This document shows positions 36,988 through 44,317 of a DNA stretch of 64,000 nucleotides, piece after piece. Below the pieces are notes generated by a model, which did not search any database, was not told the DNA's origin, and saw nothing but the letters and a program-made list of their open reading frames with translations. The position numbers and the translations under genes are program-made. Source of the stretch: Cytophagales bacterium (GTDB taxonomy: Bacteria > Bacteroidota > Bacteroidia > Cytophagales > UBA9547); assembly GCA_013297755.1 (NCBI GenBank), contig JAAFIH010000008.1:62001-126000 (forward strand). Reading direction: 5' to 3'. Position 1 is the stretch's first letter; every line of letters begins with the position of its first letter.

Positions 36988-37143
36988 AAAATGATTTATG
37001 GGCTTAGGTTTACTTAATTTTGTAATTTTCTGTTAAATATGATGCAAGTATAAAAAAATGCTTTGATATTAAGATTATAATAAACATTTTTGTTGAAATT
37101 AGGTTTAAATAAAACCTTAAAATTGACTTTAATTCAATATATT

Positions 37144-38346
37144 ATGCGATTTGCCTTTATTTTTATGGTGTTATACTTTTTTATTTGTAACGATATTTTT
37201 GCACAAATAGTATTTTTGACCGAAAAAGAGGCCATTGAGAATGCCTTGGCCATGAACCAGCAAATAAAAATAGCTACTATGAAAGTCGAAAAACAAACTT
37301 TGCTCAAAGGCAGTGCAGTAAATATACCCAACTTAGAAATTTTGATACAATCGCCTGACGGACAGCACTTTAGGCCAGGATTTATGCAAGGTTTTGATTT
37401 TCCTACGGTGTATTCGCAACAAAGTAAATTACAAAAAGCATCTATCAAAGTAGCCGAAAGCGAAAAAAATGTATCTACAAACGTACTTGTATATAACGTA
37501 AGAACGGCTTTTAATGACATACTTTATAGCCAACAAAAATACCTTACGCTCAAAAATCAAGATTCAACTTTTGCTGAAATCATCAACATGAATGAAATTA
37601 GGTATAAAGTGGGGCAAATTTCGGCACTCGAAAACATCAATAGTCAGGCTTATTATAGACAAATTCAATTTGCAAAAGAACAAGCCTTGGCAGAATTTCA
37701 GAATGCCAAAATGCAACTGGCCATTTGGATGGGCAATCCCAAAGATACTTCTTTTAAAGTAGCTACAAATTATACCAAAATAACAGATTATGACATAAAA
37801 CAAACTATTGATACTACTTTTGCCCAAAATCCTATTCAACAATATTATACTTCTCAAAAAAATTATTTTGGCAGACAGTTGAAATTAGACAAAAATAAGC
37901 GTTTGCCAGGTTTTATGGTGGGTCTACTTAATCAATCTGGGAGTAATACTCCATTCCAGTATTACCTTTCGGCAGGAGTTCGATTGCCTATTTGGTACTG
38001 GGCTTACTCATCCAAAGTGAAAGCATCCAAAAAAGATATGGACATTATTCAATCGCAAGCCAGCTATGCCAACTATACTCTTTTAGGCGAATATACCAAA
38101 GAATTAGCTTTATACAAACAATACACAAAAGCCCTAGATTATTACGAAAATACTGGTTTGGTACAATCTAATGAAATACTGAGATCAGCCAAAGAAAGCT
38201 ACAGATTGGGTAGTATTGGTTATTTTGTATATTTACAAAACATCAATCAAGCCTATCAAATTCAATTTGCTTACCTTGAGGCACTCAAAAACCACAACAA
38301 ATCTGTGGTGGCTTTGCAATACATCAAAGGAGAACAAAAATATTAG
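37144..38346 (+). CDS. TolC-family outer-membrane efflux protein
   Basis: The protein has 400 residues from the ATG at 37144, which opens the signal peptide (MRFAFIFMVLYFFICNDIFAQ). Starts further upstream would only add a non-signal tail. The fold shows TolC-type paired helical hairpins: LTEKEAIENALAMNQQIKIATMKVEKQ at the start, EKNVSTNVLVYNVRTAFNDILYSQQKYLTL in the first half and SAKESYRLGSIGYFVYLQNINQAYQIQ in the second. In Bacteroidota such a protein usually follows a CusA/CzcA pump and a membrane-fusion gene. Here it is alone, so its pump must be elsewhere. It would form the outer-membrane channel of a tripartite exporter. Confidence 0.85.
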   Translation: MRFAFIFMVLYFFICNDIFAQIVFLTEKEAIENALAMNQQIKIATMKVEKQTLLKGSAVNIPNLEILIQSPDGQHFRPGFMQGFDFPTVYSQQSKLQKASIKVAESEKNVSTNVLVYNVRTAFNDILYSQQKYLTLKNQDSTFAEIINMNEIRYKVGQISALENINSQAYYRQIQFAKEQALAEFQNAKMQLAIWMGNPKDTSFKVATNYTKITDYDIKQTIDTTFAQNPIQQYYTSQKNYFGRQLKLDKNKRLPGFMVGLLNQSGSNTPFQYYLSAGVRLPIWYWAYSSKVKASKKDMDIIQSQASYANYTLLGEYTKELALYKQYTKALDYYENTGLVQSNEILRSAKESYRLGSIGYFVYLQNINQAYQIQFAYLEALKNHNKSVVALQYIKGEQKY

Positions 38347-38406: not shown

Positions 38407-38557
38407 AGGGATCTTCTAAAAAACCATAATTTAATTTCAAAAACCCCACCCAAACCAATTTTACAACCGCACAGCCTGGCTCAAAACTATCGTTTTGCCC
38501 CAATGCACAGAATCCAAAAGGGAGGGCTTTATAGGATAGGGTTTTTAGAAGTTCCCT
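38407..38557. repeat. Palindromic repeat, end type C with the long internal segment (C1)
   Basis: The left end AGGGATCTTCTAAAAAACC and right end GGTTTTTAGAAGTTCCCT are inverted copies, unlike types A and B. The interior (CCACCCAAACCAATTTTACA ... GCTCAAAACTATCGTTTTGC ... CACAGAATCC) is practically identical to that of the next element, B3. Confidence 0.78.
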
Positions 38558-38565
38558 AAATCTAT

Positions 38566-38729
38566 TATTATGAACCTAAAAACAAATATTACAATTTTAT
38601 TTTAAACCCCACCCAAACCAATTTTACAACCGCACAGCCTGGCTCAAAACTATCGTTTTGCCCCAATGCACAGAATCCAAGTGGGAGAAATATTATAGGA
38701 CTGTAATTTTAATTTTTCGGTTTGATATA
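38566..38729. repeat. Palindromic repeat, end type B with the long internal segment (B3)
   Basis: The ends TATTATGAACCTAAAAA and TTTTTCGGTTTGATATA are those of type B, slightly decayed on the left. The interior repeats that of C1 only 9 bases away, although the two elements have different ends. A CAAAAC/GTTTTG hairpin (loop TATC) lies in the middle. Confidence 0.8.
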
Positions 38730-40309: not shown

Positions 40310-40639
40310 TTATTTTTTAGTTCCTTTTATCGCCAAATATTCTTTGGTTTTGGGACTGATAATGTTTTCTATAAAATAAATGCCATCCATGGTATCATAA
40401 GTAATATAGTACATAAAACCACTTTTTTGGTTTTTGTATCGTGCATAATATTTGCCATAAATAGGTGTTTTGCACTCGTATATAATTGTTTGATTGGGTA
40501 TTTTTTGAATAAAATCACGGATTCGTTGTACATATTCTTTGGCAGATTCTCTGTATCCAAAATATTCTTTTTCAAATAAAGTATCAACTAAATGTGTTAA
40601 TTTATTTTCAATATTTTTTGATAAAATTACTCTTTCCAT
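40310..40639 (-). CDS. RelE/ParE-like toxin, copy 1 of a tandem array
   Basis: The protein has 109 residues. The N-terminal half is helical (MERVILSKNIENKLTHLVDTL, ESAKEYVQRIRDFIQKIPNQ). The C-terminal half is a beta-sheet with the basic, aromatic pattern YGKYYARYKNQKSGFMYYITYD, then FIENIISPKTKEYLAIKG. This follows the two-helix plus sheet order of RelE/ParE-type toxins, though no catalytic residue set is certain. It overlaps the antitoxin gene by 13 bases. The last 59 residues are almost identical to copy 3 (one difference), whereas the first 50 differ widely. In known systems such proteins cut ribosome-bound mRNA or block gyrase. Confidence 0.68.
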   Translation of the reverse strand: MERVILSKNIENKLTHLVDTLFEKEYFGYRESAKEYVQRIRDFIQKIPNQTIIYECKTPIYGKYYARYKNQKSGFMYYITYDTMDGIYFIENIISPKTKEYLAIKGTKK

Positions 40640-40875
40640 GGCAAAGAGTCTATATGTTTATTAAGTCTTTCTTGCAATTCATCCAAAGTCATATTAGTAG
40701 GATTATTAATTTTTTTATAAAAGGCCTCACGTTCCAAGTCTTCTTTTGAATTGGCCATAATCCCTATTTGCGTAAGGGCTTTTTTGGCTTGTGGATGATT
40801 TTTTACATCAACTGTAATTTTGGTTATGATACCTTTTGCATTTGTTTGTGTGTTGTTTCCTGCTATTCGTGCCAT
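40627..40875 (-). CDS. Antitoxin-like protein, copy 1
   Basis: The protein has 82 residues. It starts MARIAGNNTQTNAKGIITKI, continues TVDVKNHPQAKKALTQIGIM, then has a charged helix (SKEDLEREAFYKKINNPTNMTLDELQERLNKHIDSLPWKE). The first 55-60 residues are nearly constant in all three copies, and the tail varies together with the start of the toxin. The small size, position first in the pair, and tight overlap with a RelE-like gene suggest an antitoxin. The fold is not recognised. A palindrome 17 bases before the start is a likely operator (40892-40910). Confidence 0.62.
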   Translation of the reverse strand: MARIAGNNTQTNAKGIITKITVDVKNHPQAKKALTQIGIMANSKEDLEREAFYKKINNPTNMTLDELQERLNKHIDSLPWKE

Positions 40876-40891
40876 GTTGATTGTTTTTTTT

Positions 40892-40910
40892 ACAAATTTA
40901 CAAAATTTGT
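40892..40910 (-). promoter_or_regulatory. Palindrome upstream of antitoxin copy 1 (candidate operator)
   Basis: ACAAATTT-ACA-AAATTTGT is a perfect 8+8 inverted repeat 17 bases before the start codon. It overlaps a TAnnTTTG-like TAAATTTG on the coding strand and is repeated at the same place in copies 2 and 3, fitting autoregulation. Confidence 0.5.
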
Positions 40911-41076
40911 GAATTATAGTTATAATTTAATCCAATAATAAATATTTTTCGACCTATTATGATTGCGATTGTGCTTTGCAAATTAATCCATAAATTTATC
41001 GAAAATTTATTACTTATTTTTAAAAAATATTTATTGAAAAAAAATAAGAAAAAAATTAATAGAACAGATAATTGGG

Positions 41077-41403
41077 TTATTTTTTAGTTTCTTTTATCGC
41101 CAAATATTCTTTGGTTTTGGGACTGATAATATTTTCTATAAAATACCTTTCTTTATTTACATCAAAAGTAATATAATACATAAAACCACTTTTTTTGTTT
41201 TTATACCTTGCATAAAATTTACCATATTTTGAAGTTTTGCATTTGTATAAAATAGTTTGTTTGGGTATACTTTCTATAAAATCACGGATACGTTGAACGT
41301 ATTGCTCTGCATCTTCTCTAAATCCAAAGTAATTTTTATAGAATAACGCATCTGTCAAATCATTTAGTTTGTTTTTTTAATTAGCCGATATTATGATTTC
41401 CAA
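41077..41403 (-). pseudogene. RelE/ParE-like toxin, copy 2, with an early in-frame stop
   Basis: Aligned to copy 1, the reading frame should begin at TTG 41403-41401 (LEIIISAN) but meets TAA at 41379-41377. It then continues KNKLNDLTDALFYKNYFG in the same frame to the end. The stop removes the first helix unless translation restarts at TTG 41358, giving 93 residues. The C-terminal sheet (YGKFYARYKNKKSGFMYYIT ... FIENIISPKTKEYLAIKETKK) is kept, with more differences to the other copies than they have between themselves. The loss of the toxin start with a kept antitoxin suggests inactivation of the toxin. Confidence 0.68.
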
Positions 41404-41639
41404 GGCAAAGTATTTAAGTGGTTTAACATACTTTCTTGTAATTGGTCTAAAGTTAAATTTGTAGGATCATTCCATTTTTTTTCAAACTCTTCAAGCTCTA
41501 CTTCTTCAGCTGTTTTAGAAATAATCCCTATTTGCGTAAGGGCTTTTTTGGCTTGTGGATGATTTTTTACATCAACTGTAATTTTGGTTATGATACCTTT
41601 TGCATTTGTTTGTGTGTTGTTTCCTGCTATTCGTGCCAT
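41391..41639 (-). CDS. Antitoxin-like protein, copy 2
   Basis: The protein has 82 residues, with the first 40 identical to copy 1 (to TQIGI). It then diverges: SKTAEEVELEEFEKKWNDPTNLTLDQLQESMLNHLNTLPWKS. The divergence begins earlier than between copies 1 and 3. Its stop lies inside the reading frame of toxin copy 2, so the overlap seen in the other pairs is conserved even though the toxin carries a stop. If the toxin is dead, this antitoxin may still protect against another copy. Confidence 0.6.
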   Translation of the reverse strand: MARIAGNNTQTNAKGIITKITVDVKNHPQAKKALTQIGIISKTAEEVELEEFEKKWNDPTNLTLDQLQESMLNHLNTLPWKS

Positions 41640-41655
41640 GTTGATTGTTTTTTTT

Positions 41656-41674
41656 ACAAATTTACAAAATTTGT
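41656..41674 (-). promoter_or_regulatory. Palindrome upstream of antitoxin copy 2 (candidate operator)
   Basis: The same 8+3+8 palindrome as in copy 1 lies 17 bases before the start. The whole 201-base spacer (41640-41840) matches the one at 40876-41076 almost base for base. Confidence 0.5.
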
Positions 41675-41840
41675 GAATTATAGTTATAATTTAATCCAAT
41701 AATAAATATTTTTCGACCTATTATGATTGCGATTGTGCTTTGCAAATTAATCCATAAATTTATCGAAAATTTATTACTTATTTTTAAAAAATATTTATTG
41801 AAAAAAAATAAGAAAAAAATTAATAGAACAGATAATTGGG

Positions 41841-42170
41841 TTATTTTTTAGTGCCTTTTATCGCCAAATATTCTTTGGTTTTGGGACTGATAATGTTTTC
41901 TATAAAATAAATGCCATCCATGGTATCATAAGTAATATAGTACATAAAACCACTTTTTGGATTTTTGTATCGTGCATAATATTTGCCATAAATAGGTGTT
42001 TTGCACTCGTATATAATTGTTTGATTGGGTATAGTTTCTATAAAATCATAAATTTTATCCACATATTTTTGAGCTGATTCTTTAAATTTGAAATAATTAT
42101 CATAATATAATATTTCTACCAAATCATCAAGTCTATTTCTTATATTATTACTAAGTATTAATTGTCCCAT
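41841..42170 (-). CDS. RelE/ParE-like toxin, copy 3
   Basis: The protein has 109 residues. The N-terminal 50 residues (MGQLILSNNIRNRLDDLVEILYYD, then FKESAQKYVDKIYDFIETIPNQ) share about half their positions with copy 1. The last 59 residues differ at one position only (NPKSG for NQKSG). It overlaps antitoxin copy 3 by 13 bases. Its C-terminal sheet and basic residues fit RelE/ParE. The reading frame is intact, so copies 1 and 3 are the two potentially active toxins. Confidence 0.68.
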   Translation of the reverse strand: MGQLILSNNIRNRLDDLVEILYYDNYFKFKESAQKYVDKIYDFIETIPNQTIIYECKTPIYGKYYARYKNPKSGFMYYITYDTMDGIYFIENIISPKTKEYLAIKGTKK

Positions 42171-42406
42171 TTTAATGAATCAATATGTTGGTATGATAAT
42201 TTTCTGGCTTCATCCAAAGTCATATTAGTAGGATTATTAATTTTTTTATAAAAGGCCTCACGTTCCATGTCTTCTTTTGAATTGGCCATAATCCCTATTT
42301 GCGTAAGGTCTTTTTTGGCTTGTGGATGATTTTTTACATCAACTGTAATTTTGGTTATGATACCTTTTGCATTTGTTTGTGTGTTGATACCTGCTATTCG
42401 TGCCAT
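42158..42406 (-). CDS. Antitoxin-like protein, copy 3
   Basis: The protein has 82 residues. It is identical to copy 1 at nearly all of the first 65 positions (MARIAGINTQ, KKDLTQIGIM, EDMEREAFYKKINNPTNMTLDE). The last 16 residues differ (ARKLSYQHIDSLKWDN). Antitoxin C-termini usually wrap the cognate toxin, so the switch of sequence at this point fits pair-specific recognition. It is the first gene of the array in transcription order, 628 bases from glyA on the other strand. Confidence 0.62.
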   Translation of the reverse strand: MARIAGINTQTNAKGIITKITVDVKNHPQAKKDLTQIGIMANSKEDMEREAFYKKINNPTNMTLDEARKLSYQHIDSLKWDN

Positions 42407-42423
42407 GTTGATTGTCTTTTTTT

Positions 42424-42442
42424 ACAAATTTACAAAATTTGT
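42424..42442 (-). promoter_or_regulatory. Palindrome upstream of antitoxin copy 3 (candidate operator)
   Basis: The palindrome is as in copies 1 and 2, located 18 bases before the start codon. The spacer beyond it (to 42608) matches the others with a few changes. Confidence 0.5.
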
Positions 42443-42608
42443 GAATTATAATTATAATTTAATCCAAGAATAAATATTTTTCGACCTATTATGATTGCGA
42501 TTGATCTTTGCAAATTAATCCATAAATTTATCGAAAATTTATTACTTATTTTTAAAAAATATTTATTGAAAAAAAATAAGAAAAAAATTAATAGAACAGA
42601 TAATTGGG

Positions 42609-42714
42609 TTATTTTTTATTTCCTTTTATCGCCAAATATTCTTTGGTTTTGGGACTGATAATTTTTTCTATAAAATATTTATTATCGTATAAGTGAAGTT
42701 CAGAAATTTCTTTT
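42609..42714 (-). pseudogene. Remnant of a fourth RelE-like toxin (C-terminal piece)
   Basis: An in-frame tail reads KEISELHLYDNKYFIEKIIS followed by PKTKEYLAIKGNKK-stop, preceded by TGA. The last part matches the toxin end of copies 1-3. The upstream part is different and the antitoxin is missing, so this is the outer, broken edge of the array. Confidence 0.7.
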
Positions 42715-43033: not shown

Positions 43034-44317
43034 ATGTCGTCAAACATGCTAGACAAAGAAGTTTTTGATATTATCGAAAAAGAAAAAATACGCCAACACG
43101 AGGGTATAGAACTTATTGCATCTGAAAACTATGTGTCAGAGCAAGTAATGCTAGCACAAGGATCTGTGATGACCAATAAATATGCAGAAGGATTGCCCGG
43201 CAAACGCTATTATGGCGGTTGCGAATTTGTGGATATGACCGAAAATTTGGCCATAGAGCGTGCCAAAAAATTATTTGGTGCCGCTTGGGCAAATGTGCAG
43301 CCTCACTCTGGGGCTCAAGCCAATGCAGCAGTAATGTTGGCAGTGATAAAGCCTGGAGACAAAATTTTGGGCTTTGACCTTTCGCATGGCGGCCACCTCA
43401 CACATGGACATCCAGCCAACTATTCAGGCAAAATTTATGTGCCAAGTTTTTATGGGGTAGAACAAGAAACTGGTTTGATTGATTGGAACAAAGTAGCCGA
43501 AACTGCTAAAAAAGAAAAACCAAAATTACTCATTTGTGGAGCCTCTGCCTACTCAAGAGATTGGGATTATAAGAAATTAAGAGAAATTGCTGATTCCGTT
43601 GGAGCTTTGTTGATGGCCGATATTTCGCATCCTAGTGGCTTGATTGCCAAAGGTTTGCTCAACAATCCTATGCAACATTGCCATATTGTAACTACTACTA
43701 CCCACAAAACATTGCGTGGCCCACGTGGTGGTATGATTATGATGGGACAAGATTTTGAAAATCCATTTGGCATCAAAACACCCAAAGGCGAAACCAGAAT
43801 GATGAGTGCATTATTAGATTCTGCAGTTTTTCCTGGTATTCAAGGTGGACCCCTCGAACACGTCATTGCTGCTAAAGCCATAGCTTATGGCGAAGCTCTT
43901 ACTGACGGTTATACCAATTATGTAAAACAAGTGCAAAAAAATGCGGCTGTAGTAGCCAAAACTTTTGTAGAAAAAGGCTATAAAATTATATCAGGTGGAA
44001 CAGATAATCACTTGATGTTGATCGACCTTCGTTCAAAAAATCTTTCAGGTAAAATTGCGGAAAATGCCTTAATTAAAGCAGATATTACCATAAATAAAAA
44101 TATGGTGCCGTTTGATACCCAATCGGCTATGGTAACATCGGGTATGCGCATAGGCACAGCAGCCATTACCACCCGTGGATTGAAAGAAACCGACATGGAA
44201 CGCATAGCAAATTATATTAACGATGCCTTAATGAACCACGAAAACGATACCAAACTAAAAGCCATTAAAGCCGAAATCAACAAATGGATGCATAATTATC
44301 CATTGTTTCAGTGGTAA
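43034..44317 (+). CDS. glyA: Serine hydroxymethyltransferase GlyA
   Basis: The protein has 427 residues and is full length. The N-terminal [13 protein letters not shown] and [15 protein letters not shown] segments, the [10 protein letters not shown] region and [11 protein letters not shown] are diagnostic. The pyridoxal-phosphate lysine is K225 in [29 protein letters not shown] lies near the end. The enzyme interconverts serine and glycine with transfer of a one-carbon unit to tetrahydrofolate. It is cytoplasmic and essential for one-carbon metabolism. It is monocistronic and ends in a strong hairpin 13 bases after the stop. Confidence 0.98.

Follow-up and report, generated by a model that had tools for sequence, protein, structure and literature searches.

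A tandem array of type II toxin-antitoxin operons in a Cytophagales bacterium with a probable co-inherited specificity cassette across the gene overlap

The stretch of DNA analysed here, termed the window, comprises 64,000 nucleotides (nt) of a Cytophagales bacterium (contig JAAFIH010000008.1, positions 62,001 to 126,000) and carries, on the minus strand at 40310-42714, three antitoxin/toxin units in tandem. The array consists of type II toxin-antitoxin operons, with a toxin that, judged by its predicted fold, belongs to a RelE/ParE superfamily branch that has no name. The copies form a mosaic, which is the product of recombination. A block that straddles the junction of the antitoxin and toxin genes is inherited as a matched unit, as judged from the mosaic itself, in its recurrence in a second array and in the co-variation of the antitoxin tail with the N-terminal half of the toxin. 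This variable block is probably a specificity cassette that spans the gene overlap and is inherited as one piece.

Layout and mosaic structure of the array

The earlier note on this DNA, made from the sequence alone, had described three gene pairs repeating every 764-767 bases, with a fourth toxin remnant. The repeat and the remnant were found as described, with a unit spacing of 764-767 bp, each unit being made up of a 201-nt spacer, an 82-residue antitoxin and a 109-residue toxin. The antitoxin gene comes first, both genes are co-directional, and in copies 1 and 3 the toxin start overlaps the antitoxin gene by 13 nt; the two have no natural single reading frame in common. The second unit is an incomplete pair, because its toxin is a pseudogene, whose TTG start and early stop codon make a full-length protein impossible. 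The features are as follows (ORF, open reading frame).

40310..40639, minus strand: toxin 1, 109 aa, intact (ORF); same family as toxin 3
40379..40756, minus strand: copy 1 wider variable block against copy 2 (antitoxin residues 41-82 and toxin residues 1 to ~88)
40490..40680, minus strand: copy 1 variable inner cassette (antitoxin residues 66-82 and toxin residues 1-50)
40502-40677: copy 1 maximum-scoring divergent segment against copy 3; 42.6% different inside, 1.9% outside
40627..40875, minus strand: antitoxin 1, 82 aa (ORF); 85% identical to antitoxin 3 over residues 1-81
40876..41076, no strand assigned: spacer between antitoxin 1 and toxin 2, 201 nt; 201/201 identical to 41640-41840
40892..40910, no strand assigned: inverted repeat ACAAATTTTGTAAATTTGT, candidate shared operator, directly upstream of antitoxin 1
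41077..41403, minus strand: toxin 2, pseudogene; start TTG, in-frame TAA at codon 9
41391..41639, minus strand: antitoxin 2, 82 aa, intact (ORF)
41640..41840, no strand assigned: spacer between antitoxin 2 and toxin 3, 201 nt
41841..42170, minus strand: toxin 3, 109 aa, intact, predicted RelE/ParE fold (AlphaFold2 and Foldseek)
42021..42211, minus strand: copy 3 variable inner cassette (antitoxin residues 66-82 and toxin residues 1-50)
42158..42406, minus strand: antitoxin 3, 82 aa (ORF; AlphaFold2 model)
42609..42690, minus strand: fourth toxin remnant, C-terminal end only, upstream of the array; weak extension to 42791 with two TGA codons
38988..40242, minus strand: ISL3-family transposase, two ORFs, probably frameshifted (Pfam: DDE_Tnp_ISL3, E 1.9e-58; Zn_ribbon_ISL3, E 4e-9)

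Copies 1 and 3 had been described as nearly identical at their ends and only about half identical at the antitoxin end and toxin start, and this was borne out. Identity is 62/65 over antitoxin residues 1-65 and 58/59 over toxin residues 51-109, whereas it falls to 6/16 over antitoxin residues 67-82 and to 26/50 over toxin residues 1-50. At the nucleotide level, 75 of the 176 columns in the core differ (43%), against 11 of 571 outside it (~2%); the clustering of 75 of the 86 differences within 176 contiguous columns was matched by none of 2000 permutations. The core begins at antitoxin residue 66/67, ends at toxin residue ~47-50 and, by the models presented below, would contain the last helix of the antitoxin with the first strand and two helices of the toxin. 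Its edges coincide with the ends of helices in these models (64-77 in the antitoxin; 8-23 and 30-45 in the toxin). Between copies 1 and 2 the block is wider (~375 nt, starting at antitoxin residue 41 and ending at toxin residue ~88-97) and is centred on the same gene junction, with 115 of 375 sites different inside it and 2 of 369 outside. The spacers of these two copies, likewise reported as near identical, agree at all 201 positions.

Synonymous (dS) and non-synonymous (dN) rates were computed along the alignments. Between copies 1 and 3, dS rises from 0.03-0.06 in the flanks to values within the block that range from 1.29 up to saturation. This jump indicates two parts with different histories, and thus recombination rather than faster substitution. 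The contrast in dS was not accompanied by any dN/dS above 1, and positive selection in that form is unsupported by the rates in the block. An assembly error was also considered as the source of the mosaic and rejected: bad repeat joins could alter only the number or order of the copies, each block (~190 nt, within read length) is distinct while the flanks are near identical in any order, and a second array is built alike.

The phylogenetic trees also separate the two parts. In the backbone tree the array copies cluster together, and a grouping of copy 3 with the sister-species locus L033 was rejected by the approximately unbiased (AU) test (p=2e-5). In the inner-block tree, it was the grouping of copies 1 and 3 that was rejected (AU p=0.026), and copy 3 stands beside L033, with a weak bootstrap of 53. 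A dispersed copy (L002) lies outside the window on the same contig, ~52 kb away (G000:C69:49810-50600); it is 97% identical to copy 3 overall and 100% identical within the variable block. Close to it, at L002 139-629, is another toxin-antitoxin-like pair of a different kind, which by eye resembles YoeB/RelE.

Fold, family and the toxin-antitoxin interface

No convincing family was found for either window protein in Pfam, NCBIfam, PADLOC or PHROGs. For the toxin family, a sequence profile search of the PDB gave no real match, and none of the RelE/ParE sequence models (PF05016 and other clan models) scored above cut-off, with only 2 of 14 members matched and a best E of 0.07. The antitoxin was found to carry no Pfam or NCBIfam family and no PhdYefM or RelB domain, in keeping with the earlier remark that its fold was not recognised.

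The AlphaFold2 model of toxin 3 (predicted local distance difference test, pLDDT, 88.5; predicted template modelling score, pTM, 0.80) has strands (E) and helices (H) in the order E3-5 H8-23 H30-45 E64-69 E76-84 E87-94 H99-105, which corresponds to the beta-alpha-alpha-beta-beta-beta(-alpha) arrangement of the RelE/ParE superfamily. A Foldseek search of this model against the PDB ranked PfiT and ParE first, followed by RelE (best E 3.1e-3, probability 1.00; none below 0.001). The model of antitoxin 3 has strands at 7-11 and 17-22, forming a beta-hairpin, and helices at 28-36, 44-56 and 64-77. Taken together, the RelE/ParE fold and the Phd/YefM-type partners present in relatives point to a type II toxin-antitoxin system whose family has no name, in line with the earlier note, which had called the pairs toxin-antitoxin-like.

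The best fold match of the toxin model is PfiA-PfiT of the Pf4 prophage (PDB 9W3A; ParE/RelE superfamily), with a template modelling score of about 0.6. The two systems are alike in having an antitoxin with a C-terminal toxin-binding part. However, identity is 14%, PfiA-PfiT is a single operon without an array, the N-domain of PfiA is of another described type, and PfiT has an extra C-terminal helix. RelE is also among the fold matches, and in other genomes a PhdYefM-type antitoxin is paired with this toxin family, which recalls the RelBE, YefM-YoeB and Phd systems; the window antitoxin differs from these in lacking their domains.

In PfiA-PfiT, antitoxin alpha3 (67-79) touches strand 1 and helices 1-2 of the toxin, through residues in 6-40, as well as residues 83 and 92, while alpha2 (46-56) touches toxin residues 59-65, 79 and 90-105, in the sheet and C-terminus (PMC13048266). 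In ParD3-ParE3, alpha3 residue 80 pairs with toxin residue 12 (K12), and alpha2 residues 60-64 contact toxin residues 59-91 (PMC7669267). The window proteins were mapped onto these interfaces by homology, following the order of secondary structure, rather than by a model of the complex. By this mapping the inner block would correspond to the contact of alpha3 with helices 1-2, and the wider block between copies 1 and 2 would add the contact of alpha2 with the sheet. The contacts would thus be arranged in nested fashion about the gene junction, such that any tract centred there would carry matched partners. The suggestion that the variable block lies where the proteins touch therefore holds for the alpha3/helix 1-2 sub-interface, but not for the antitoxin middle helix and the toxin sheet, which are invariant between copies 1 and 3.

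A second array, relatives and co-variation

A tandem pair (L042) is also present in a sister genome, G395, and its block edges are as in the window array. Its copies are alike over antitoxin residues 1-46, divergent over antitoxin residues 47-64 and toxin residues 1-49, and alike over the rest. For toxin residues 1-49, dS is 0.58 and dN 0.35; for residues 50-97, dS is 0.62 and dN 0.02. With equal dS and unequal dN, it can be deduced that the C-terminal half is under purifying selection while the N-terminal half has changed, and that recombination alone is insufficient here. The idea that recombination keeps the remainder of the unit uniform thus applies to the window array but not to the sister array, where purifying selection takes the place of recent homogenisation.

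Of the genomes sampled from the class, 9 of 395 contained relatives, as did 34 of 125 from the distant family f59; wherever the locus permitted, these relatives were checked for a small upstream gene. The order, antitoxin then toxin, is the same in them. In f59, some partner antitoxins match PhdYefM (PF02604) at E 1.9e-4 and 1.2e-5, with bit scores under the curated cut-off. Other partner antitoxins have unrelated N-terminal parts and a common C-terminal pattern, LTxEExxxxxxxHIxxLxW, which marks the C-terminal tail as the toxin-binding part. In Kaistella (L009 4633-5013, and L010 and L011 at the same position), the antitoxin-side gene has tandem toxin-binding-like motifs, DDFDEQFAAGMTSDELLENIAEHIESI and DDFDERFAKGLTPEKAREESKKKIREWW, as if two-tailed. 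No relatives were found among the plasmids, phages and viral contigs searched, and hence there is no sign of a present mobile carrier.

Co-variation was assessed using the antitoxin tail (AC), the antitoxin middle part (AM), the toxin N-half (TN) and the toxin C-half (TC). Among seven pairs of the genus, distances correlate between AC and TN (r=0.63, p=0.0005; AC-TC, 0.17) and between AM and TC (r=0.52, p=0.03; AM-TN, -0.08). Among 38 pairs of f59, AC is correlated with TN given TC (r=0.43, p=0.0003), and more weakly with TC given TN (0.28). In the 30 f59 pairs with the most similar toxin C-halves, AC identity tracks TN identity (r=0.77). These 30 fall into two groups: near-orthologues alike in both halves, and others with TC at 0.7-0.9 but TN at 0.4-0.6. 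Such a split in the sequences is as expected if cassettes are exchangeable. In a first set of 24 pairs, a diverged TN seemed confined to co-resident paralogues and absent from pairs of different genomes; a role of co-residence in driving the divergence was dropped in favor of the family-wide reading, being non-significant with 58 toxins (p=0.08).

Broken toxins occur among the relatives as well. In G395, L055 (C82) has lost most of the middle of its toxin beside an intact antitoxin, and L054 is without the toxin N-terminus; in G637, the toxin of a tandem copy is truncated. The retention of antitoxin genes beside broken toxins fits a truly harmful toxin but is no proof of one. The solitary intact antitoxin of L055 (G395:C82, 1301-1626) has a C-terminal half identical to that of L039, and the L039 and L037 antitoxins, also of G395, are near identical, the differences lying in the first six residues and in a short extension at the C-terminus. 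In genus g66, the toxin relatives L104, L067, L105, L106 and L107 contain a stop inside the aligned region (two TAG codons in L107, and TAA in the other four), although the L067 frame is open over 111 aa (L023) and its stop may be merely the natural end.

Around the array itself, the ISL3-family transposase adjoins on the left, and the flanks hold an outer-membrane-efflux-like ORF (37090-38346) and a glyA-like ORF (43034-44317), both named by eye. Left of the transposase are two 84-nt direct repeats (window 38441-38524 and 38604-38687), 98% identical and 163 nt apart. The ACAAATTTTGTAAATTTGT inverted repeat is also present upstream of copy 3 and of the dispersed copy, and as such was not found upstream of the sister-species loci. 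An Rfam search of the window gave no RNA, promoter-like matches were no commoner than in shuffles, and a terminator-like site was not found.

Competing explanations and significance

In the reading that we favor, each operon consists of two parts of different history. The backbone, common to all copies, comprises the spacer with its operator, the antitoxin N-terminal domain and the beta-sheet half of the toxin. The inner cassette comprises the antitoxin last helix and the toxin first strand and two helices, which lie side by side across the 13-nt overlap and, by homology to PfiA-PfiT and ParD-ParE, would bind each other. The contacts would be nested, with the antitoxin middle helix and toxin sheet surrounding an inner pair made up of the antitoxin last helix and toxin helices 1-2. 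Recombination centred on the gene junction would then transfer matched contact partners together; copies 1 and 3 differ in the inner pair alone, and copies 1 and 2 in both inner and outer pairs. The cassette would set specificity, such that copies 1 and 3 should fail to neutralise each other's toxin, while shared N-domains and operators would hold the copies co-regulated.

Several points weigh against this reading. The toxin sheet and antitoxin middle helix, half of the expected interface, are identical in copies 1 and 3, which makes cross-neutralisation possible. Within the block, dN/dS is below 1 (0.3-0.6). The inner-block rejection of array monophyly is weak (AU 0.042), and the antitoxin 3 model is of low confidence (mean pLDDT 74.8, pTM 0.36). 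The main confounder is that the antitoxin tail and the toxin N-half are adjacent in the DNA, so that physical linkage by itself produces a degree of co-inheritance; of the toxin segments compared in the 38 pairs, the one nearest the tail has the top partial correlation (0.37).

Linkage might in fact be the whole explanation: junction-centred tracts would carry a divergent allele, the block would have no special role in specificity, and the copies would cross-neutralise. The contiguity of the variable pieces, the ranking of the nearest segment and the shared sheet contacts are all in its favor. However, an independent array has the same edges, and linkage gives no account of the L042 toxin, where dN differs ~17-fold between halves of equal dS. 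Moreover, the segment correlations are not monotonic with distance: the second-best segment is the far beta3-beta4 (0.26), which is in the PfiT contact list, whereas the linker and beta2 are near zero. Among the genus pairs, AM also follows the remote toxin sheet, though replacement of the inner block in a common backbone would give the same. We regard linkage as an unlikely sole cause.

Another potential reason for the divergence is relaxed constraint, in that the toxin N-half and antitoxin tail might simply be freer to vary than the half with the catalytic sheet, and separate specificity would not be selected for. This could account for the low dN/dS of the block and for the generally greater variability of TN within clades (same-clade between-genome mean TC-TN, +0.126). 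However, near-orthologues change evenly in the two halves (TN/TC of 0.96/0.87 for L091/L127, 0.88/0.89 for L075/L078 and 0.78/0.77 for L098/L130), whereas other pairs with equally similar TC drop to the low TN class, giving two discrete classes instead of a single raised rate. Silent divergence in the window array likewise jumps at the edge of the block, which means that history differs and not constraint alone. Relaxed constraint thus appears more doubtful than linkage. Finally, a decaying antidote locus, with toxins lost and antitoxins kept against incoming relatives, would suit the dead toxin 2 beside its intact antitoxin, the fourth remnant and the broken toxins of L055, L054 and G637, but it is highly improbable, given the intact toxins 1, 3 and of the dispersed copy, the many full-length toxins in the family, and a mosaic that it leaves unexplained.

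The co-inherited specificity cassette has parallels in known systems. Mesorhizobium opportunistum ParD2/3-ParE2/3 also has paralogous pairs in one genome. In these pairs, specificity is set by antitoxin C-terminal residues that face toxin alpha1 and the sheet (PMC7669267). The difference is that specificity is described there in terms of individual residues, whereas the window array exchanges a contiguous block across a gene overlap; in addition, no sequence similarity of the window toxin family to ParE reached the curated threshold.

E-colicin-type nuclease bacteriocins and contact-dependent inhibition (CDI) toxin-immunity cassettes have adjacent, co-inherited specificity segments that are swapped by recombination in a conserved backbone. 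Those toxins are secreted and come with full immunity genes, whereas the unit in the window is two half-genes of an intracellular pair. Exchange of blocks in this manner between type II systems was not reported in the literature searched, which did not include subscription journals.

The array adds to the RelE/ParE-fold families one that is unnamed in current profile libraries and is paired with antitoxins of several unrelated N-terminal domains. It also bears on how a new pair can gain a specificity apart from that of its parent without a lethal mismatch. If the cassette sets specificity, one recombination event would alter both partners together and thereby avoid the mismatch. It is conceivable, and we propose it tentatively, that the nested interface lets arrays gain mutually insulated and still co-regulated specificities in one recombination step via a ~190-nt cassette, whose exchange leaves a common regulator domain and operator in place. 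Natural swaps ready for testing are available in the array, in its relatives and in the discrete cassette types of other genomes.

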